22,809 bases of DNA from a virus: the IMG/VR virus record IMGVR_UViG_3300045131_002933, positions 1 through 22,809 of that record; one strand, written 5' to 3'. A program made the position numbers and the translations under genes. The first letter of the stretch is position 1; each line of letters starts with the position of its first letter. The notes below the pieces were generated by a model, which had not been told where the DNA came from, did no database searches, and saw only the letters and a list, made by a program, of their open reading frames with translations. Shown in pieces: positions 8,295 to 19,656 of the stretch.

Positions 8295-9344
8295 ATGGAC
8301 AAACAAGCACAAATATTAGCCTACCAGGCAATAAGCGAAAATGTGAAAGATAGCACTGCAAGACAAATAATTCGTTATGTTATGGGATGTGAGCTATGGA
8401 ACCAGGACACAATTTCACCAACTAATGCATACTTAGCAAAAAAATATGGATGGAATGAAAAAACAGCCAGAGATGCAATATCACTTGCTAAAAAAAGTCA
8501 ATTTATAACTCTTACAAATCAAAAAAAAGGAACACAAAAGGGGAGAATTTTAGAACTAAATATAAATTTTTTACGAGGCAAAATGGGTGAGTGTTTTGCC
8601 TTAAAAATAAGACCAAAAAAAACACTAAAAATTACAGAATTTAATTTTTTACCCGACAACTTACCCGACAACTTACCCGACAACTTACCCGACAACTTAC
8701 CCGACAACTTACCCGACAACTTTTTGACAAAAAATGGCTTTGTAGATAGCAAAAACGACATTTTGGAGGGGGACAATCAATATATAGTAATTAATAATCA
8801 ATTTAAACCTAGCGAACGACCCCTCCCGGGGTCAGTTCGCGGAGAGTTAAAAAAAGATTGTTTTAATAATTTTTTACCATTAGTTTTTCGTGAAGAAAAT
8901 GGCGAGATTTTAGTAACCGAAAAAAAAGATGTCACAAATATCCCAATCCCAAAAAACGATCCCATTGAAATTTCTAATGCCATAAAACTTTTTGAACCAA
9001 TTTTTGAAATAGCTTTCAAAACAACAAACCAGTATGGCAATGTTTCTACCCGAAAAAAAATAAAAGATATTCTTCTCATGATTCCTTTTGAAGACTTGCA
9101 AGAAATAACTAAAAAGTTCGTTGAACATAAACAAGATCAATTCATCCCGCGACCAAAAAATATTTATAGTTTTTGTATGGACATAGATCGTATCAGAGAT
9201 TATTTAAAAAAAGACCAGTCTAATGGCAAACACACCTTGCGACCAATCTACAGTGGGTCAGCCGAAGTGGAAGCTGCTCGCAAAAAACAAAAACAAGATT
9301 TTTATGAAAAGCGGGAAGTGTTTATAAATATTAGAAAAAATTAA
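8295..9344 (+). CDS. Winged-helix replication initiator with internal origin repeats
   Basis: A 349-residue protein. Residues 1-90 read like the helical/winged-helix N-terminal domain of phage and plasmid initiators (TNAYLAKKYGWNEKTARDAISLAKKSQFITL, about 38-68). A linker follows with six perfect LPDN repeats (119-142), which are the translation of 12-bp DNA repeats. The C-terminal region (about 225-305) is helical, with MIPFEDLQEITKKFVEHK, in the style of DnaD-like or Rep C-terminal domains. Directly downstream are a DnaC-like loader and a primase-helicase, so this is probably the protein that binds the origin and recruits them, as lambda O does. The family assignment rests on the fold-like pattern and context rather than a named motif. 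Confidence 0.7.
   Translation: MDKQAQILAYQAISENVKDSTARQIIRYVMGCELWNQDTISPTNAYLAKKYGWNEKTARDAISLAKKSQFITLTNQKKGTQKGRILELNINFLRGKMGECFALKIRPKKTLKITEFNFLPDNLPDNLPDNLPDNLPDNLPDNFLTKNGFVDSKNDILEGDNQYIVINNQFKPSERPLPGSVRGELKKDCFNNFLPLVFREENGEILVTEKKDVTNIPIPKNDPIEISNAIKLFEPIFEIAFKTTNQYGNVSTRKKIKDILLMIPFEDLQEITKKFVEHKQDQFIPRPKNIYSFCMDIDRIRDYLKKDQSNGKHTLRPIYSGSAEVEAARKKQKQDFYEKREVFINIRKN
8651..8722. repeat. Six perfect 12-bp tandem repeats (iteron-like)
   Basis: The unit ACCCGACAACTT occurs six times without a single mismatch, inside the initiator gene. A T-run precedes it and TTTTGACA follows. GC-richer than the surroundings and a multiple of three, it encodes LPDN repeats. Perfect identity, including third codon positions, argues that selection or recent expansion acts on the DNA. 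It is best read as an initiator-binding iteron array. Confidence 0.85.
8651..8840. other. Putative theta replication origin inside the initiator gene
   Basis: Three elements in order: the iteron array (8651-8722), an AT-rich stretch with only three G/C in 33 bases (8775-8807), and a strong hairpin. In the hairpin GCGAACGACCCC (8812-8823) pairs with GGGGTC-A-GTTCGC (8828-8840), a 12-bp stem with one bulged A and a TCCC loop. A TTGACA at 8725-8730, with a poor -10, could supply a priming transcript. The order of iterons then AT-rich DNA inside an initiator gene is that of lambda ori in gene O. Function is inferred. Confidence 0.6.
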
Positions 9345-13312: not shown

Positions 13313-13610
13313 ATTTTTTTAGAAAGTTATTTATTAATTTTCTCATTTCTTTTGCTTGTTGGATTTGTGTTCCTTGTGACTCTATTTCACATCTTGTTAT
13401 GTCTTTCCAAATTTTTAAATAGTTTTCAGCGGAGACTATTCCCACACTATATGAAACATTTCCCAACGGATTCATTAGTCTTAGAAACCATGAGTTTTCA
13501 GTGGTTTTTTCTGCTACTATCCATGTTCCTGTTTTTGGAATTGTGTGTATTAATATACTCTTAGATCCATGCTTTGTAATAAATTTACTCAATCTGTCTA
13601 CGTTTCTCAT
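13290..13610 (-). CDS. Unknown 106-residue protein next to the VWA gene
   Basis: A mixed protein beginning MRNVDRLSKFITKHGSKSIL, with a strand-rich middle (TGTWIVAEKTTENSWFLRLM) and a helical C-terminus (QQAKEMRKLINNFLKKYE). I recognise no family. It overlaps the end of the HExxH/VWA gene in an ATGA, so the two are coupled in translation, and a partner role with the CobS/CobT-like pair is possible. The stop lies inside the start of the zinc-ribbon gene. Confidence 0.5.
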   Translation of the reverse strand: MRNVDRLSKFITKHGSKSILIHTIPKTGTWIVAEKTTENSWFLRLMNPLGNVSYSVGIVSAENYLKIWKDITRCEIESQGTQIQQAKEMRKLINNFLKKYEPAKMP

Positions 13611-15088
13611 ATATTTTCATTTTCCTTAATATTTAATTTTAATATTTCTATAAAAGCTTCTCCTATTTCTTTCTTTGCGTTTTTTGTTAGTATGCATTTA
13701 TTTTTTTCTCTTCCAAATACGTCTCCTAATATTTGACTTGTATTTCGGTTATCTTGAAGTGTTATTCCTAAACACTCAATTCCTTGTTTCTTTGCTTTCT
13801 CATATTCTTTTTCTATTTCTTTTCTATTGCTTTGTCCATCCGTTAGGATTATTAATATTTTTCTTTCTGCTCTTGTTCTGTGTAATTCTTTTGCACATTC
13901 TCTTAGTACAATATTTATGTTTGTGCCGTTTGAATCAGCTTTGATAATTTCATCTAAATCATTTAGATCTGTCCAATTTATTTTATTTTTTCCCATTTCT
14001 TTTATTTTCACTGCGGTTTTTCCGAAAATAAAATTTATTCTTTGTATTCCTGCTATTCTTAATGCTTCTCCTGTCATCAAGGCTGCTGATAAAGCGTAGC
14101 TTATATTATTTTCAAATGACATTGAACCAGAAACATCTGTTGCTATTGCAAAGGCATAACTTTTATTGCTTTTTACAATTTTTCGCATGAATGGTTTTTT
14201 TAGTTTTTGTGTTCTTATTTTTACCAATCTTTTTGCTACTAGTTTTCCGCTTCGGAATCTTCCTTCAAATTCCATTGCGTTGTTTCTTTTTATTATTGTT
14301 CTTAATTTTTTTCCTATTTGTTCTGCTTGTTCTATTATTTCATCTATATATTCGATCTCCGTATTTTTTGTTTTTATTGTTTCTCCTTCTTGTTTTTCTT
14401 TTAATTTTTTTATTACTTGTTTTTCTGTTTTTTCTTTTTCAATTTCTGTTGTCCCCCCCCCGTGGTCATTTTGTTTGTATTGTTCTTTTTGCTTATCTGT
14501 TAATTCTCCTAATTCAGTTATTAATAAATCTACTATTTCATCTGTTAATGGAACTAAACTTTGCGTTTCTTTCCTAGTTAGTATTAATTTTTTATTTTTT
14601 TCCATTATTTTTGCTATTTTTTCTCCTACTATTTCATATTTATTTATATTACTATTAAAGCCTCTATTTTCAAATCTTATTGCTGCGAATAGCAATGCCT
14701 TTTCGTGTTCATTTGTTTCGCTTTTTGGTAGAACACTAACCAACGTTCCTATAAATTCGCTTCTTGTTGATTCAAGAATTTCTTTTGCGTTTGGGTAATA
14801 ATTACCCATAATCTCTTCTATTGAGATGTCTTCTAACATATTTAAACAGGAATGATGTAATTCTTCATGTTTAATAGGATCTGTTGTTGAAGTTGTGTAG
14901 TGTATATGAGCTGTTTCATGTAACAATAGCCCTAGAAGAATATCTTCTTCTAGGCTATAAATATCATTTTTTACATAGAAAATCTTTTTATTTTTTATAT
15001 TAGCTGCCCATCTCTCCCCTTCTTCTATTCCTATTTTATATTCTCTCTTTATTACATTTGCTACTTTATTAAATTCTTTTAGTTTCAT
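13607..15088 (-). CDS. CobT-like protein: HExxH peptidase-like region plus VWA domain
   Basis: A 493-residue protein. Residues 50-100 carry LLLHETAHIHYTT with a HExxH motif (57-61), followed by NMLEDISIEEIM (83-94), whose glutamates could complete a zinc site. Residues 205-260 are a Lys/Glu-rich linker. Residues 310-485 form a von Willebrand A domain with an intact metal site (DVSGS 318-322, T389, D417 in ILTDGQS). This plan resembles the CobT-type/VWA proteins that partner with AAA+ ATPases of the CobS/MoxR type, and the gene right upstream (6-nt gap) encodes one. Such pairs act as chaperone-like remodelling machines. The target here is unknown, and the HExxH may or may not be active. A G9 run falls in the linker. 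Confidence 0.8.
   Translation of the reverse strand: MKLKEFNKVANVIKREYKIGIEEGERWAANIKNKKIFYVKNDIYSLEEDILLGLLLHETAHIHYTTSTTDPIKHEELHHSCLNMLEDISIEEIMGNYYPNAKEILESTRSEFIGTLVSVLPKSETNEHEKALLFAAIRFENRGFNSNINKYEIVGEKIAKIMEKNKKLILTRKETQSLVPLTDEIVDLLITELGELTDKQKEQYKQNDHGGGTTEIEKEKTEKQVIKKLKEKQEGETIKTKNTEIEYIDEIIEQAEQIGKKLRTIIKRNNAMEFEGRFRSGKLVAKRLVKIRTQKLKKPFMRKIVKSNKSYAFAIATDVSGSMSFENNISYALSAALMTGEALRIAGIQRINFIFGKTAVKIKEMGKNKINWTDLNDLDEIIKADSNGTNINIVLRECAKELHRTRAERKILIILTDGQSNRKEIEKEYEKAKKQGIECLGITLQDNRNTSQILGDVFGREKNKCILTKNAKKEIGEAFIEILKLNIKENENI
14453..14461. repeat. C9/G9 homopolymer in the VWA gene
   Basis: Nine C on the plus strand (G9 in the gene) in an otherwise very AT-rich sequence. It encodes glycines at residues 210-212, between the HExxH half and the VWA half. 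A one-base slip would cut off the VWA domain. Such tracts in contingency genes cause phase variation; here it may also be a sequencing weak spot. Confidence 0.7.
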
Positions 15089-15094
15089 ATATTT

Positions 15095-16363
15095 TTATTT
15101 AATTTCTACTAGGTTGCTTATAATATCCATTGATGTCCCCAACTCTGGGTGGTGAATAATTATTGCTTTTTTCTCTTTATTTTGTCCTTCTACTATTGAT
15201 ATTGCACTTGCCACCTTTACTCCCATATTGGTTATTTCAGTTTTTGAAATTCCATTTTCCATATTTTCATAATAAATTCCTTCGATTATGAATTTATCTC
15301 CTTTTATTGCGTTTTCTTTATTTTCTATGCCTAGTTTAATTACCTCTCCTAAGTCTTTTTTAATTATTTCTTCAAATTTTTCTTTATCCGTTGTTATCGC
15401 AATGTATGTGTTTTGTGTGTCTACATCTACTGTGTAAGTTTTTCCAATTATTAATTGCTCTACTGTTGTTATTTTTTCTCTTTGTTCGCTTGCTCCCTTT
15501 TTAGTTAGCGGTAAATGCAACTTTGCTAGCATTTTCAAAGCTTTATTATCTGCTGACTCCAATTTATTCGAGAAAGCTAAGCTTAATGCTTCCATTGGGT
15601 TCATATTTTCACATAACCTTAATACATTTAATATGTCTCTTGTATTAATTGCGTAATCTACTGATCCTTTTTCTTTTTCCAATCTTGTTTCGTTTGCTAA
15701 CTCTACCAGTTTATTTGCCATTTCACTTTGGGCAATTTTTTGCCCTAGGTGGCTTTTTATTATGTCCATTTCCTTATTCTTTGGTGGAAATTCTGCATTT
15801 ATGCAAATTACAAATCTTGATAAGAGTGCTTTATTCATTTCTTTGGTTCCTGCATATTCAGGAGGATTGCAAGTAGCAAATATTCTAAAGTTTTCATGTT
15901 TGATTACTAATTCTTTGTCATCTTTTTCTGTTAGTACTAAATAGCCATCATCATCCATTACTGATTGCAATACAAATAAAACTTCTGGCAATGCCGCATT
16001 AATTTCGTCAAAAACAATCCATTCTCCATTTCTCATCGCTTCTGTTAGTATTCCATCTACCCAATATGTTCCTTTATCATTAATGAGTAATCTTCCTACT
16101 AATTCATCCGCTGTTGTTCCTCCATTTAGGTTAATTCTTCTCAATCCATTTTGAGTTTTTGCTGCTAAGTATCTGATGGCGCTCGTTTTCCCCGTTCCTG
16201 ATTCTCCGGTTAGTAGTGTTGGTAGATTATCTCTTATAGCTATAGCTAATGTTTTTAATATATTTCCGTGATCTATAAAGTTTCCTCCGTTTTTTGGAAC
16301 ATATTTATTTTTTCCGTCTGCCATTTCTAATTCTACTTTTTCTACTTTAATTGTTTTTTGCAT
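15095..16363 (-). CDS. CobS/MoxR-like AAA+ ATPase
   Basis: A 422-residue AAA+ ATPase. Walker A GESGTGKT (53-60), Walker B WIVFDEIN (115-122), sensor 1 FATCNPP (162-168) and arginine finger LLSRF (180-184) are all intact, in the MoxR/CobS pattern. Residues about 300-422 form an extra strand-rich C-terminal domain not usual for MoxR. MoxR-type ATPases work with VWA proteins to insert metal ions or remodel protein complexes. The VWA/HExxH gene follows after 6 nt, so the pair is almost certainly one machine. Phages carry CobS/CobT-like pairs whose function is not established. Cobalt chelation itself is unlikely here because no cobalamin genes are present. Confidence 0.85.
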   Translation of the reverse strand: MQKTIKVEKVELEMADGKNKYVPKNGGNFIDHGNILKTLAIAIRDNLPTLLTGESGTGKTSAIRYLAAKTQNGLRRINLNGGTTADELVGRLLINDKGTYWVDGILTEAMRNGEWIVFDEINAALPEVLFVLQSVMDDDGYLVLTEKDDKELVIKHENFRIFATCNPPEYAGTKEMNKALLSRFVICINAEFPPKNKEMDIIKSHLGQKIAQSEMANKLVELANETRLEKEKGSVDYAINTRDILNVLRLCENMNPMEALSLAFSNKLESADNKALKMLAKLHLPLTKKGASEQREKITTVEQLIIGKTYTVDVDTQNTYIAITTDKEKFEEIIKKDLGEVIKLGIENKENAIKGDKFIIEGIYYENMENGISKTEITNMGVKVASAISIVEGQNKEKKAIIIHHPELGTSMDIISNLVEIK

Positions 16364-17355: not shown

Positions 17356-17826
17356 CTAGTTCCTGAGACACCGCACCGAAAACCCGTCCGCCTTGGAATC
17401 GGTGTCCCTGACGACCGTGGCGTACGACGAATTCAAGTACCGGTGCCAAGCATTAGCACCACTCTGAGAAGACGACCAGATGCCGGCGTACGTGGTGCGA
17501 CCGGCGAAACTACCATCGGCAGATCGGTAGCCAGAAAAGGCAATGTTTTTCATATCTTCTTTTGTTTTTAATAGTATAGAAAACTCCTCATCTGTTGGAA
17601 TTCTTTTGCCGGCTTTTTTAGTTTCACGCATTGCGGCGTCCCAAGTGAAAAGTTGTTCACCGATATATTTACCATCTAAAAATTCCCAAATATCTTTTTC
17701 AGGATTTTCTAAATAACAATTTTTATGTATTTTAATTTTATTCCAATCTTTTGAATCTACCTTAAAAGTATAATCTTCCAATATTGGAAACATTTTATTA
17801 TACATTCTTATTATTTTTTTATTCAT
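17356..17826 (-). CDS. DGR-type target protein with lectin-like variable C-terminus (copy 1)
   Basis: I take the ATG at 17824-17826 (MNKKIIRMYN), giving 156 residues; a longer frame from 17898 runs into the upstream gene. A constant N-terminal part (1-98) includes WNKIKI and KYIGEQLFTWDAAMRETKKA. The C-terminal part (99-154) reads GYRSADGSFAGRTTYAGIW, then SQSGANAWHRYL and KADGFSVRCL. It is of the FGE-sulfatase/C-type-lectin type used by diversity-generating retroelements. It is a close paralogue of the protein at 18601-19140. The 3' end is strongly GC-rich against an AT-rich gene body. Such proteins usually bind cell-surface or phage-receptor ligands; here the ligand is unknown. Confidence in DGR targeting is high, but the RT is not in the window. 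Confidence 0.8.
   Translation of the reverse strand: MNKKIIRMYNKMFPILEDYTFKVDSKDWNKIKIHKNCYLENPEKDIWEFLDGKYIGEQLFTWDAAMRETKKAGKRIPTDEEFSILLKTKEDMKNIAFSGYRSADGSFAGRTTYAGIWSSSQSGANAWHRYLNSSYATVVRDTDSKADGFSVRCLRN
17366..17532 (-). repeat. Variable region VR1 of a diversity-generating retroelement target
   Basis: The segment aligns without gaps to 18608-18774. By hand I count about 26 differences over 167 nt, almost all at first and second codon positions. At about 17 of them at least one copy has A, as expected for adenine-specific mutagenesis from a shared template. A 34-nt tract at the coding 3' end (17366-17399) is identical in both and is the candidate initiation-of-mutagenic-homing site. 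Confidence 0.7.
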
Positions 17827-17831
17827 AATTT

Positions 17832-18254
17832 TTATTGTTTTTGTGTGTTGATTATTTCCATATTTCTTTTCATTATTGTCATGTTGTCTTTTACCCAATC
17901 TTCTTGCGCTATTTCATTTGCCTCCTCTATGTCGCTGGCGAGTACTTTTGTTTCTATTTTCATACAAACGGTATAATATTCTTTAGGGCCTGCTCTTTTA
18001 AGTGCTTTTGCTGCTGCTGCTAAATTATTTATTTTAGGTAGCATTTCTAAATCATTTTCTTCATAGTTATTTTCTTTCCCATTTTCCCATAAAACTTTAA
18101 CATCCATTTCTCCACCGTCTTTATTTTTATTGTGTTCTTGTGTAACTGTTCCTTTTATATGCCCTTCTTTTCCTCCCCAAACTGGATTAGCATCAGTTTC
18201 TCCGTGTCTTCTTGTTATTAATTTTACTTTGTCTTTTAGTTTAAATTTATTCAT
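17832..18254 (-). CDS. SH3/KOW-like phage protein, 140 residues
   Basis: Residues 1-72 look like a small beta-barrel: MNKFKLKDKVKLITRRHG, then NPVWGGKEGHIKGTVT, then DVKVLWENGKENNYEENDL, the pattern of an SH3-like or KOW-type domain with a conserved GxxGxVxW-like core. Residues 75-140 are helical with an AAAAKAL stretch. I see no catalytic motif. It probably mediates binding. It lies between two lectin-like variable genes and just upstream of the first one's start (stop at 17832, ATG at 17826). Confidence 0.6.
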   Translation of the reverse strand: MNKFKLKDKVKLITRRHGETDANPVWGGKEGHIKGTVTQEHNKNKDGGEMDVKVLWENGKENNYEENDLEMLPKINNLAAAAKALKRAGPKEYYTVCMKIETKVLASDIEEANEIAQEDWVKDNMTIMKRNMEIINTQKQ

Positions 18255-18277
18255 GTTTTTACTTTAATTTATTATTT

Positions 18278-18469
18278 TTATCCGAAATTTATATTTTTGA
18301 AATCCTGTGGTAAATATTCTTTTCCGCATTCATTGCACATTATCATTACCACTTCTCCTTCCCCTGAAGATGTACTTACATCCAATATACCCTCTTCGTC
18401 GATTGTTGCGCTTGATGTTATTGTCTCTTTCACCATGAAATTATTTTTCTTACAAATACATTTTTTCAT
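18278..18469 (-). CDS. Small Cys-rich (zinc-ribbon-like) protein
   Basis: A 63-residue protein with MKKCICKKN at the N-terminus and CNECGKEYLP at about 45-54, so four cysteines in two pairs. The middle is Ser/Thr/Glu-rich (TSSATIDEEGILDVSTSSGE). It probably forms a zinc ribbon; I cannot name the family. It lies in the tight leftward run, 23 nt upstream of the SH3-like gene. Confidence 0.55.
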   Translation of the reverse strand: MKKCICKKNNFMVKETITSSATIDEEGILDVSTSSGEGEVVMIMCNECGKEYLPQDFKNINFG

Positions 18470-18478
18470 AATTTTTAT

Positions 18479-18583
18479 TTAATAATTAAATAATTGTTTT
18501 ATTAGCCAAATTAGTAGTAGACCTTTAATAAGCCCGTTCAAAAAAAGAACAATAACAGTTGCAACATTTCCTATTGTTTCCAT
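18479..18583 (-). CDS. Tiny single-pass membrane peptide, 34 residues
   Basis: An ATG at 18581-18583 opens METIGNVATVIVLFLNGLIK and continues with GLLLIWLIKQLFNY to a TAA at 18479-18481. Two short hydrophobic stretches cover most of it. It fills the gap between the Cys-rich gene and the second lectin-like gene, with the same A/T-rich start context as its neighbours, which is why I believe it. A phage small membrane protein of unknown role. Confidence 0.45.
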   Translation of the reverse strand: METIGNVATVIVLFLNGLIKGLLLIWLIKQLFNY

Positions 18584-18600
18584 ATTTTTAATCTTAATAA

Positions 18601-19140
18601 TTATTTTAGACACCGCACCGAAAACCCGTCCGCCTTGGAATTAGTGGCCCTGTAGACCCTGGCGAACGATGAACCCAAGAGCCGGTGCCAAGCAGAATCA
18701 CCACTCTGGGACGACGACCAGATGTAGGCGTACGTGGAGCGAGGGGCGAAACTACCATCGGTATTGCGGTAGCCAGAAAAGGCAATGTTTTTCATATCTT
18801 CTTTTGTTTTTAATAGTATAGAAACTTCATCATTAGTTGGAATTTTTTTGCCGGCTTTTTTAGTTTCACGCATTGCAGCGTCCCAAGTGAAAAGTTGTTC
18901 ACCGATATATTTACCACTTACAAATTCCCAAATATCTTTTTCAGGATTTTCTAAATAACGAGTTTTATTTATTTTAATTTTATTCCATCTATCAGAGTTG
19001 ACCTTGAAATTATAATCTTCAAGTTCCAATTCTTTTCCAGCTATCAATTCTTCTGCTTGGTCATTTGTTAGAATTGGTTTGTTTAATTTTTCTAAAATTT
19101 CATCTAATTTTTTTAATACTTTTTTTTCAAATATTGTCAT
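18601..19140 (-). CDS. DGR-type target protein with lectin-like variable C-terminus (copy 2)
   Basis: A 179-residue paralogue of the protein at 17356-17826. An added N-terminal helix (MTIFEKKVLKKLDEILEKLN) resembles the start of the gene at 6399-6680. Residues 65-122 are nearly identical to copy 1. The C-terminal variable part (123-178) differs at many exposed positions while framework residues (GYR, DGSFA, IWSSSQSG, AWHR, KADGFSVRCL) are kept, the pattern of a C-type-lectin scaffold under DGR diversification. It would be a ligand-binding protein, perhaps on the virion or host surface. No signal peptide is visible. Two copies with identical flanks imply a recent duplication. Confidence 0.8.
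   Translation of the reverse strand: MTIFEKKVLKKLDEILEKLNKPILTNDQAEELIAGKELELEDYNFKVNSDRWNKIKINKTRYLENPEKDIWEFVSGKYIGEQLFTWDAAMRETKKAGKKIPTNDEVSILLKTKEDMKNIAFSGYRNTDGSFAPRSTYAYIWSSSQSGDSAWHRLLGSSFARVYRATNSKADGFSVRCLK
18608..18774 (-). repeat. Variable region VR2 of a diversity-generating retroelement target
   Basis: The counterpart of VR1, also 167 nt, gapless to 17366-17532 and sharing the 34-nt GC-rich tract at 18608-18641. Variable codons fall at AAY-type sites in one or the other copy (for example AAT against TCT and AAT against GGT). It is GC-rich compared with the AT-rich body of the gene. Confidence 0.7.
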
Positions 19141-19179: not shown

Positions 19180-19656
19180 CTAGTTGCTCTTTCGAACACA
19201 ACGCACCCGACAGCTAGCGGAGCTAGTCTTAAGAGAGTAGTGCGTGTTTCCGCTGTCCAAGTTCACATACCAAGCGAGCTGAGTGGTACTTGAGGTCGTA
19301 GTCGCCGACCAATGGTAGTAGCCGGCTGGATTTTCGCCTAACATTTTTTGCATTTCTTCAAAATTATTATCAAACAAACTGATTAGTTCACTCCTATCAG
19401 GGAGTCTTCCTCCCATTTCTTTGCAGATTTTTTCAGCTGCAAAGAAATCCATTTCTCCTAAGTCTTCGCTCCATTCTAAGTTTCCGATTTTAGTCCATCT
19501 TGTTTCTTCTTTTCTGTTTTCTGTCAAATAGATCATGAAGTCATAGAAACATGGCTTTTTCATTATTTTTTTACCCATTTTATCTTCTATCATATTTTCT
19601 TTTATTGTTTTCCAATCCTCTATAAATGCTTTGAATAGTGTTATTATATTTTCCAT
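19180..19656 (-). CDS. DUF1566/Lcl-type protein, probable third DGR-like target
   Basis: A 158-residue protein of the Lcl/DUF1566 type: FAAEKICKEMGGRLPDRSEL, then a C-terminal lectin-like strand set HWSATTTSSTTQLAWYVNLD ending RVRCVRKSN. The body is AT-rich but the last 140 bases are GC-rich, like the two lectin-like targets. Its variable end is not alignable with VR1/VR2, so it would need a different template. DUF1566 proteins are common DGR targets and bacterial surface binders. There is no signal peptide. It lies directly upstream of the second lectin-like gene in the same operon. Confidence 0.7.
   Translation of the reverse strand: MENIITLFKAFIEDWKTIKENMIEDKMGKKIMKKPCFYDFMIYLTENRKEETRWTKIGNLEWSEDLGEMDFFAAEKICKEMGGRLPDRSELISLFDNNFEEMQKMLGENPAGYYHWSATTTSSTTQLAWYVNLDSGNTHYSLKTSSASCRVRCVRKSN
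19192..19329 (-). repeat. GC-rich variable-region-like end VR3
   Basis: The gene's last ~140 bases are sharply GC-rich against an AT-rich body. They encode the DUF1566 C-terminus with many Ser/Thr/Asn/Tyr positions. No paralogue in the window lets me align it, so DGR targeting is inferred from composition, position and family. Confidence 0.4.

Follow-up and report, generated by a model that had tools for sequence, protein, structure and literature searches.

Diversity-generating retroelements (DGRs) of Patescibacteria/CPR cells (DGR clade 2, Roux et al. 2021, PMC8144416) hold the reverse transcriptase (RT), the template repeat (TR) and the variable repeat (VR) at one cellular locus and act on large targets. 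The targets described here lie on the virus record IMGVR_UViG_3300045131_002933, whose whole 22,809-bp length is referred to as the window. They resemble the cellular DGRs in their homologous VR/TR, their Fib_succ_major-type target domain and their A-directed variation, and the closest templates found come from Patescibacteria genomes. In contrast to those systems, the gene is small and virus-borne, with neither RT nor TR beside it, and it is likened to the clade, not assigned to it.

Targets located away from their RT and TR are described in Thiohalocapsa PB-PSB1 (PMC10907252) and Trichodesmium (PMC8867640), and some of the Thiohalocapsa VRs agree with a TR located elsewhere at every site that is not an adenine (PMC10907252). 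There the TR resides in the same genome, whereas the present targets are virus-borne and have no known cognate TR. The partial DGRs of Nanoarchaeota (PMC4372165) share with the present genes a composition of target gene, VR and cis sites only, along with adenine-directed changes; whether those RT-less targets are fossil or remote was left open (PMC4372165). They are cellular and confined to two loci in one genome, whereas the gene studied here occurs, apparently as a mobile cassette, on ten or more distinct viruses, of which two are closed circles. The crAss-like phages likewise carry VR-bearing genes, with many genomes showing a VR but no TR (PMC7290462); those targets, however, are tail-linked and keep an intact or truncated RT at the locus, whereas the present ones are stand-alone small genes in unrelated viruses with no RT remnant. 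A partial literature search turned up no account of unrelated viruses that carry such targets while lacking all cis machinery.

Target genes and their 3' repeats

The window has no end repeats and is treated as a fragment because none of the scanned ORFs was recognised as a structural gene. Its content comprises a Prim-Pol/DnaB-type replication protein, an SNF2 helicase, numerous small genes and a phage gene pair (13607-16363) in which a MoxR-type AAA ATPase gene precedes one for a VWA-domain protein. A further gene (8295-9344), which precedes an AAA ATPase gene, contains a tandem repeat (about 8650-8725) encoding (NLPD)n.

Target gene 1 (17356-17826, minus strand) encodes 157 aa from an ATG at 17826 and ends in a Fib_succ_major/FISUMP (C-type-lectin-like) domain; if translated from an alternative TTG at 17898, it would run into the upstream gene. 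Its Pfam match (E=8e-8) falls slightly below the curated cut-off, and the family alignment also supports the assignment. The paralogous target gene 2 (18601-19140, minus strand, 179 aa) scores above the cut-off for PF09603 (35.6 against 33.9 bits). In these C-type-lectin-like target genes the VR is 3'-terminal and the domain match spans it. An AlphaFold model of the gene 2 product, built from 22 sequences, is confident (pLDDT 88) and β-rich in the C-terminal half, an earlier model from 11 sequences having been weak in the VR. The only significant match in a fold search with the target model is a phage FISUMP-domain protein, and the search of the PDB returned no significant match. By inspection, the target protein has no obvious signal peptide.

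The repeats VR1 (17366-17532, minus strand) and VR2 (18608-18774, minus strand) align without gaps at an offset of 1242. Their 3' tracts of 34 nt (17366-17399 and 18608-18641, both on the minus strand) are identical, as the initial annotation stated, and line up with the conserved 3' end of the reference VRs and TRs; each tract is, by its position alone, a candidate IMH. That annotation also counted about 26 differences in 167 nt. The number holds over 160 nt (17366-17525), but with the 7 nt past the tract that the 167 nt include, the differences number 31. The 26 differences are distributed 10/11/5 over codon positions 1, 2 and 3, so that 21 fall at positions 1 and 2, and one copy has A at 17 of them; both tendencies had been noted before, and the second proves specific to A. 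Columns containing A vary in 17 of 32 cases and those without A in 9 of 128 (Fisher p=2e-8; this and the other p-values assume independent columns and are approximate), with little or no comparable effect for C, G or T (p=0.15, 0.12 and 0.04). In the upstream part of genes 1 and 2 the A effect is absent (A 17/114, T 13/80). The share of A among conserved columns is 15/134 in the VR, compared with 97/230 upstream. Within this window of 32% GC, just three islands exceed 50% GC, namely VR1, VR2 and the 3'-terminal part of the gene at 19180-19656, and no further near-copy of VR1/VR2 was found there.

Genes 1 and 2 could be ordinary paralogues shaped by diversifying selection or gene conversion and not DGR targets at all, a reading to which their divergence of about 10% upstream of the VRs, with several amino-acid changes, lends some support. 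Selection alone, however, is not expected to produce a base specificity restricted to A, a match to the adenines of independent templates (see below), a depletion of A at the other columns or GC islands confined to the repeats. Ordinary paralogy was rejected on base specificity and is regarded as highly improbable.

Directly upstream of the VRs, a 57-nt A-rich stretch (17526-17582 and 18768-18824) is identical in both paralogues despite the divergence of the genes. Its adenines are unmutated and it would not be template-copied; gene conversion is perhaps responsible.

A third target gene (19180-19656, minus strand, 158 aa), overlooked in the initial annotation, carries an Lcl_C domain (PF07603, 45.7 bits, cut-off 34.9). 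Its GC-rich 3' island forms a probable variable repeat, VR3 (19192-19326, minus strand), in which mismatches to the G176 TR are enriched at the TR adenines (21/44, against 21/91 elsewhere, p=0.004). In the cognate TR/VR pair of G176, mismatches occupy 13 of 44 adenines and 0 of 91 other sites. On this comparison gene 3 is very probably a DGR target. Since it is homologous to another template class (G176) than VR1/VR2, the window virus probably carries two template classes of target. No relatives of gene 3 were found in viral contigs, and searches of phage collections with genes 2 and 3 gave no match.

Homologous templates in cellular genomes

A search of genome collections recovered canonical DGRs, with RT and TR, whose repeats are homologous to VR1/VR2 in seven genomes, six of them Patescibacteria. 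One locus, in genome G012, contains target, Avd-like ORF, TR and RT; its TR and VR differ at 12 positions, 10 of which are TR adenines and the remaining two of which are located at the 3' edge. The six further TR/VR pairs come from Patescibacteria genomes in the phylum to which G009 belongs and the order to which G011 belongs, G009 and G011 both being Ca. Paceibacterota MAGs. Each of the seven cognate pairs shows 0-2 non-A mismatches and 7-24 at A. The TR in the canonical DGRs found here is situated within about 0.7-2 kb of the VR.

These templates, which are homologous to the window repeats and not cognate to them, place the VR1/VR2 differences at template adenines. Against the G012 TR alone, differences occupy 17 of 45 adenine columns and 9 of 125 others (p=6e-6, or p=1.6e-5 when restricted to codon positions 1 and 2); against the adenines of all seven TRs, the proportions are 17/37 and 9/128 (p=2e-7). 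The TR-adenine columns include VR codons 4, 12, 20, 38, 40, 43, 47, 49 and 51. Because the differences fall at the TR adenines of homologous canonical DGRs, the identification of VR1 and VR2 as DGR variable repeats, proposed initially from the repeat pattern, is strongly supported by these independent templates. At the other VR columns the virus-borne copies have A in only 3-7% of cases, in AT-rich genomes, as expected of copying from a template that avoids A.

The initial annotation had suggested looking for a template repeat and RT elsewhere. Homologous canonical DGRs were indeed found, but in no genome searched was a cognate TR or RT found for the window VRs, or a cognate TR for any other viral VR. 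When the viral and genome collections were searched for exact patterns of the window's template, nothing matched. A TR-specific degenerate pattern matched 0 viral contigs, against 10 for its VR-type version, although by inspection that pattern fits only 3 of the 7 reference TRs. The best non-cognate TRs differ from the window VRs by at least 37 non-A mismatches. The template closest to any viral VR is in genome G714, with 18-19 non-A mismatches in 128 to the VRs of the virus records G002 and G005; a search of the G714 family for the template of the G005 VR yielded nothing beyond chromosomal targets and the G714 pair already known. Two other candidate loci were set aside, L001 as a chance peptide match and L002 as a distant primase.

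Virus-borne copies and the search for cis machinery

The same small target gene, of 157-182 aa, is present on ten further virus records (G002-G008, G773, G774 and G776). Two of these, G004 and G008, represent one virus, giving ten distinct viruses including that of the window. By tblastn (1e-4), the window and seven compared records have no other gene in common. Around the target, G002 and G005 have nothing in common but a 541-nt island containing the gene; since their similarity there is limited to this island, the target gene appears to move as a mobile single-gene cassette. Within the island, the VRs differ at 23 of 171 positions, 21 of them with A, and the rest at 21 of 370, 13 with A.

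Two records, of 44.3 and 36.6 kb, close as circles, each with genes for a large terminase and a head protein. G774 closes through a 114-nt end repeat whose junction restores a 389-aa head protein, and G776 through a 123-nt end repeat whose junction restores an intact 172-aa target. The G776 record begins and ends inside the target gene (L096 and L098, respectively). The break follows the final invariant base ahead of VR codon 4, the first variable codon, which is AAY in all seven templates. In a common metagenome assembler setting, k-mers reach a maximum of 123. Branching of the assembly graph at a hypervariable VR would yield exactly such a break, which suggests that VR variants co-existed in the sample.

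The initial annotation reported neither RT nor template repeat in the window, and none was found in this analysis. A Pfam profile detected no RT in the 11 target-bearing virus records (the window and ten others), and an HMM trained on eight RTs from the DGRs recovered in this analysis gave nothing significant in the ten non-redundant records. Likewise, a TR/VR pair finder, which detects each of the seven reference DGRs and another two in genome G694, returned nothing in the ten non-redundant records. Neither a DGR-type RT nor a TR that closely matches the VR outside the A sites is seen in cis in the window fragment or the other records.

These results bear on the view that the virus possesses an ordinary cis DGR, with RT and TR on the part missing from the 22.8-kb fragment. 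The window is linear and without recognised structural genes, as such a view would have it, and some phage DGRs do act in cis, linked to tail genes (PMC7290462). However, RT and TR are equally absent from ten other records with the same gene, including the two closed circles. Moreover, the target genes are flanked within the window by more than 3 kb to one side and 17 kb to the other, which exceeds the TR-VR spacing of the canonical DGRs found here. A cis DGR is accordingly considered distinctly unlikely. The lack of cis machinery in 11 records, two of them closed circles, supports the earlier proposal that the enzyme is located elsewhere to this extent; its action in trans remains the part for which no cognate TR or RT was found.

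Supply of the machinery from another genome

The host of the window virus probably belongs to the Patescibacteria, judging from sequence homology, and would be a member of Ca. Paceibacterota, since the closest template (in G714) comes from a family with chromosomal copies of the small gene. That family of 11 genomes includes G009, G011 and G628, all three carrying such copies; those of G011 sit among housekeeping genes resembling recR, dnaB and cysS. No RT was found in G009, G010 or G011, three of the genomes with chromosomal copies. In G628 an RT is encoded about 20 kb from the chromosomal small-target copy (L106, on contig C30), but it is retron-like (St85-type) and was rejected as the DGR enzyme. 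The Paceibacterota MAG G694 (about 1 Mb) contains the small target gene and three separate DGRs with TR/VR pairs (L064, L107 and L108), which were rejected as template for its own small target, no near-copy of the VR of that target being present.

The explanation given a little better than an even chance is that the virus-borne genes are DGR targets without cis machinery, rewritten in trans by a cellular DGR, most likely that of a Ca. Paceibacterota host. RT, Avd and template RNA would be supplied during infection from a DGR in another genome, most likely the host chromosome. The template RNA would be reverse transcribed with errors at adenines, and the mutagenised cDNA would replace the viral VR next to the 3' tract, altering about 14 codons and yielding a small lectin-like binder varied at these positions. 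Trans supply is favoured because the A-specific variation coincides with seven independent TRs while 11 records lack cis machinery, because the closest template falls in the family with chromosomal copies, and because the G002/G005 VR differences are mostly with A and G776 breaks at the first variable codon. Also in its favour, DGR activity in trans from one locus to another has been documented within a single cellular genome (PMC10907252). Against it weigh the lack of a cognate TR for every viral VR, the candidate genomes with no RT, a retron-like RT or DGRs without a near-copy, the frozen look of the G011 copies, and the fragmentary window with its homology-based host assignment.

Some of these points would equally fit frozen captured targets, genes diversified in cellular DGRs, then taken up and passed on as ordinary cassettes with no rewriting now, their A-biased differences being a record of past DGR activity. 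The missing cognate TR agrees with this, as do the two G011 chromosomal copies, which show no adenine enrichment and look frozen; the identical VRs of G004 and G008 also agree but say little, as the whole first 7 kb of both records is identical. However, the virus-borne VRs keep their depletion of A, whereas the frozen-looking copies have gained A at the other columns (11% in G011, 17% in G628). The G002/G005 differences are nearly all of A type, as recent rewriting would give, and the G776 break suggests co-existing variants. Frozen capture is therefore held to be rather unlikely.

Under rewriting in trans, the system may be active at present in the window virus, and the target protein would bind a ligand. 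Known phage DGR targets are tail-tip proteins. The small targets, unlike these, have no obvious secretion signal, a hint that the protein binds inside the cell and is not a receptor-binding fibre; conceivably it is used in counter-defence or superinfection exclusion. More tentatively, at slightly less than even chance, unrelated Patescibacteria phages may trade this tiny hypervariable gene and rely on the host DGR for its diversification during infection.

DGR surveys start from the RT, and the presence of RT-less targets on ten distinct viruses means that viral DGR use is probably undercounted. The largest survey itself states that remote targets would escape detection (PMC8144416). Assembly breaks like that of G776 could serve to find active VRs. 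In conclusion, the diversification of a viral gene by machinery supplied from another genome becomes directly testable and, if true, would mean that the virus exploits its host's protein-diversification system.
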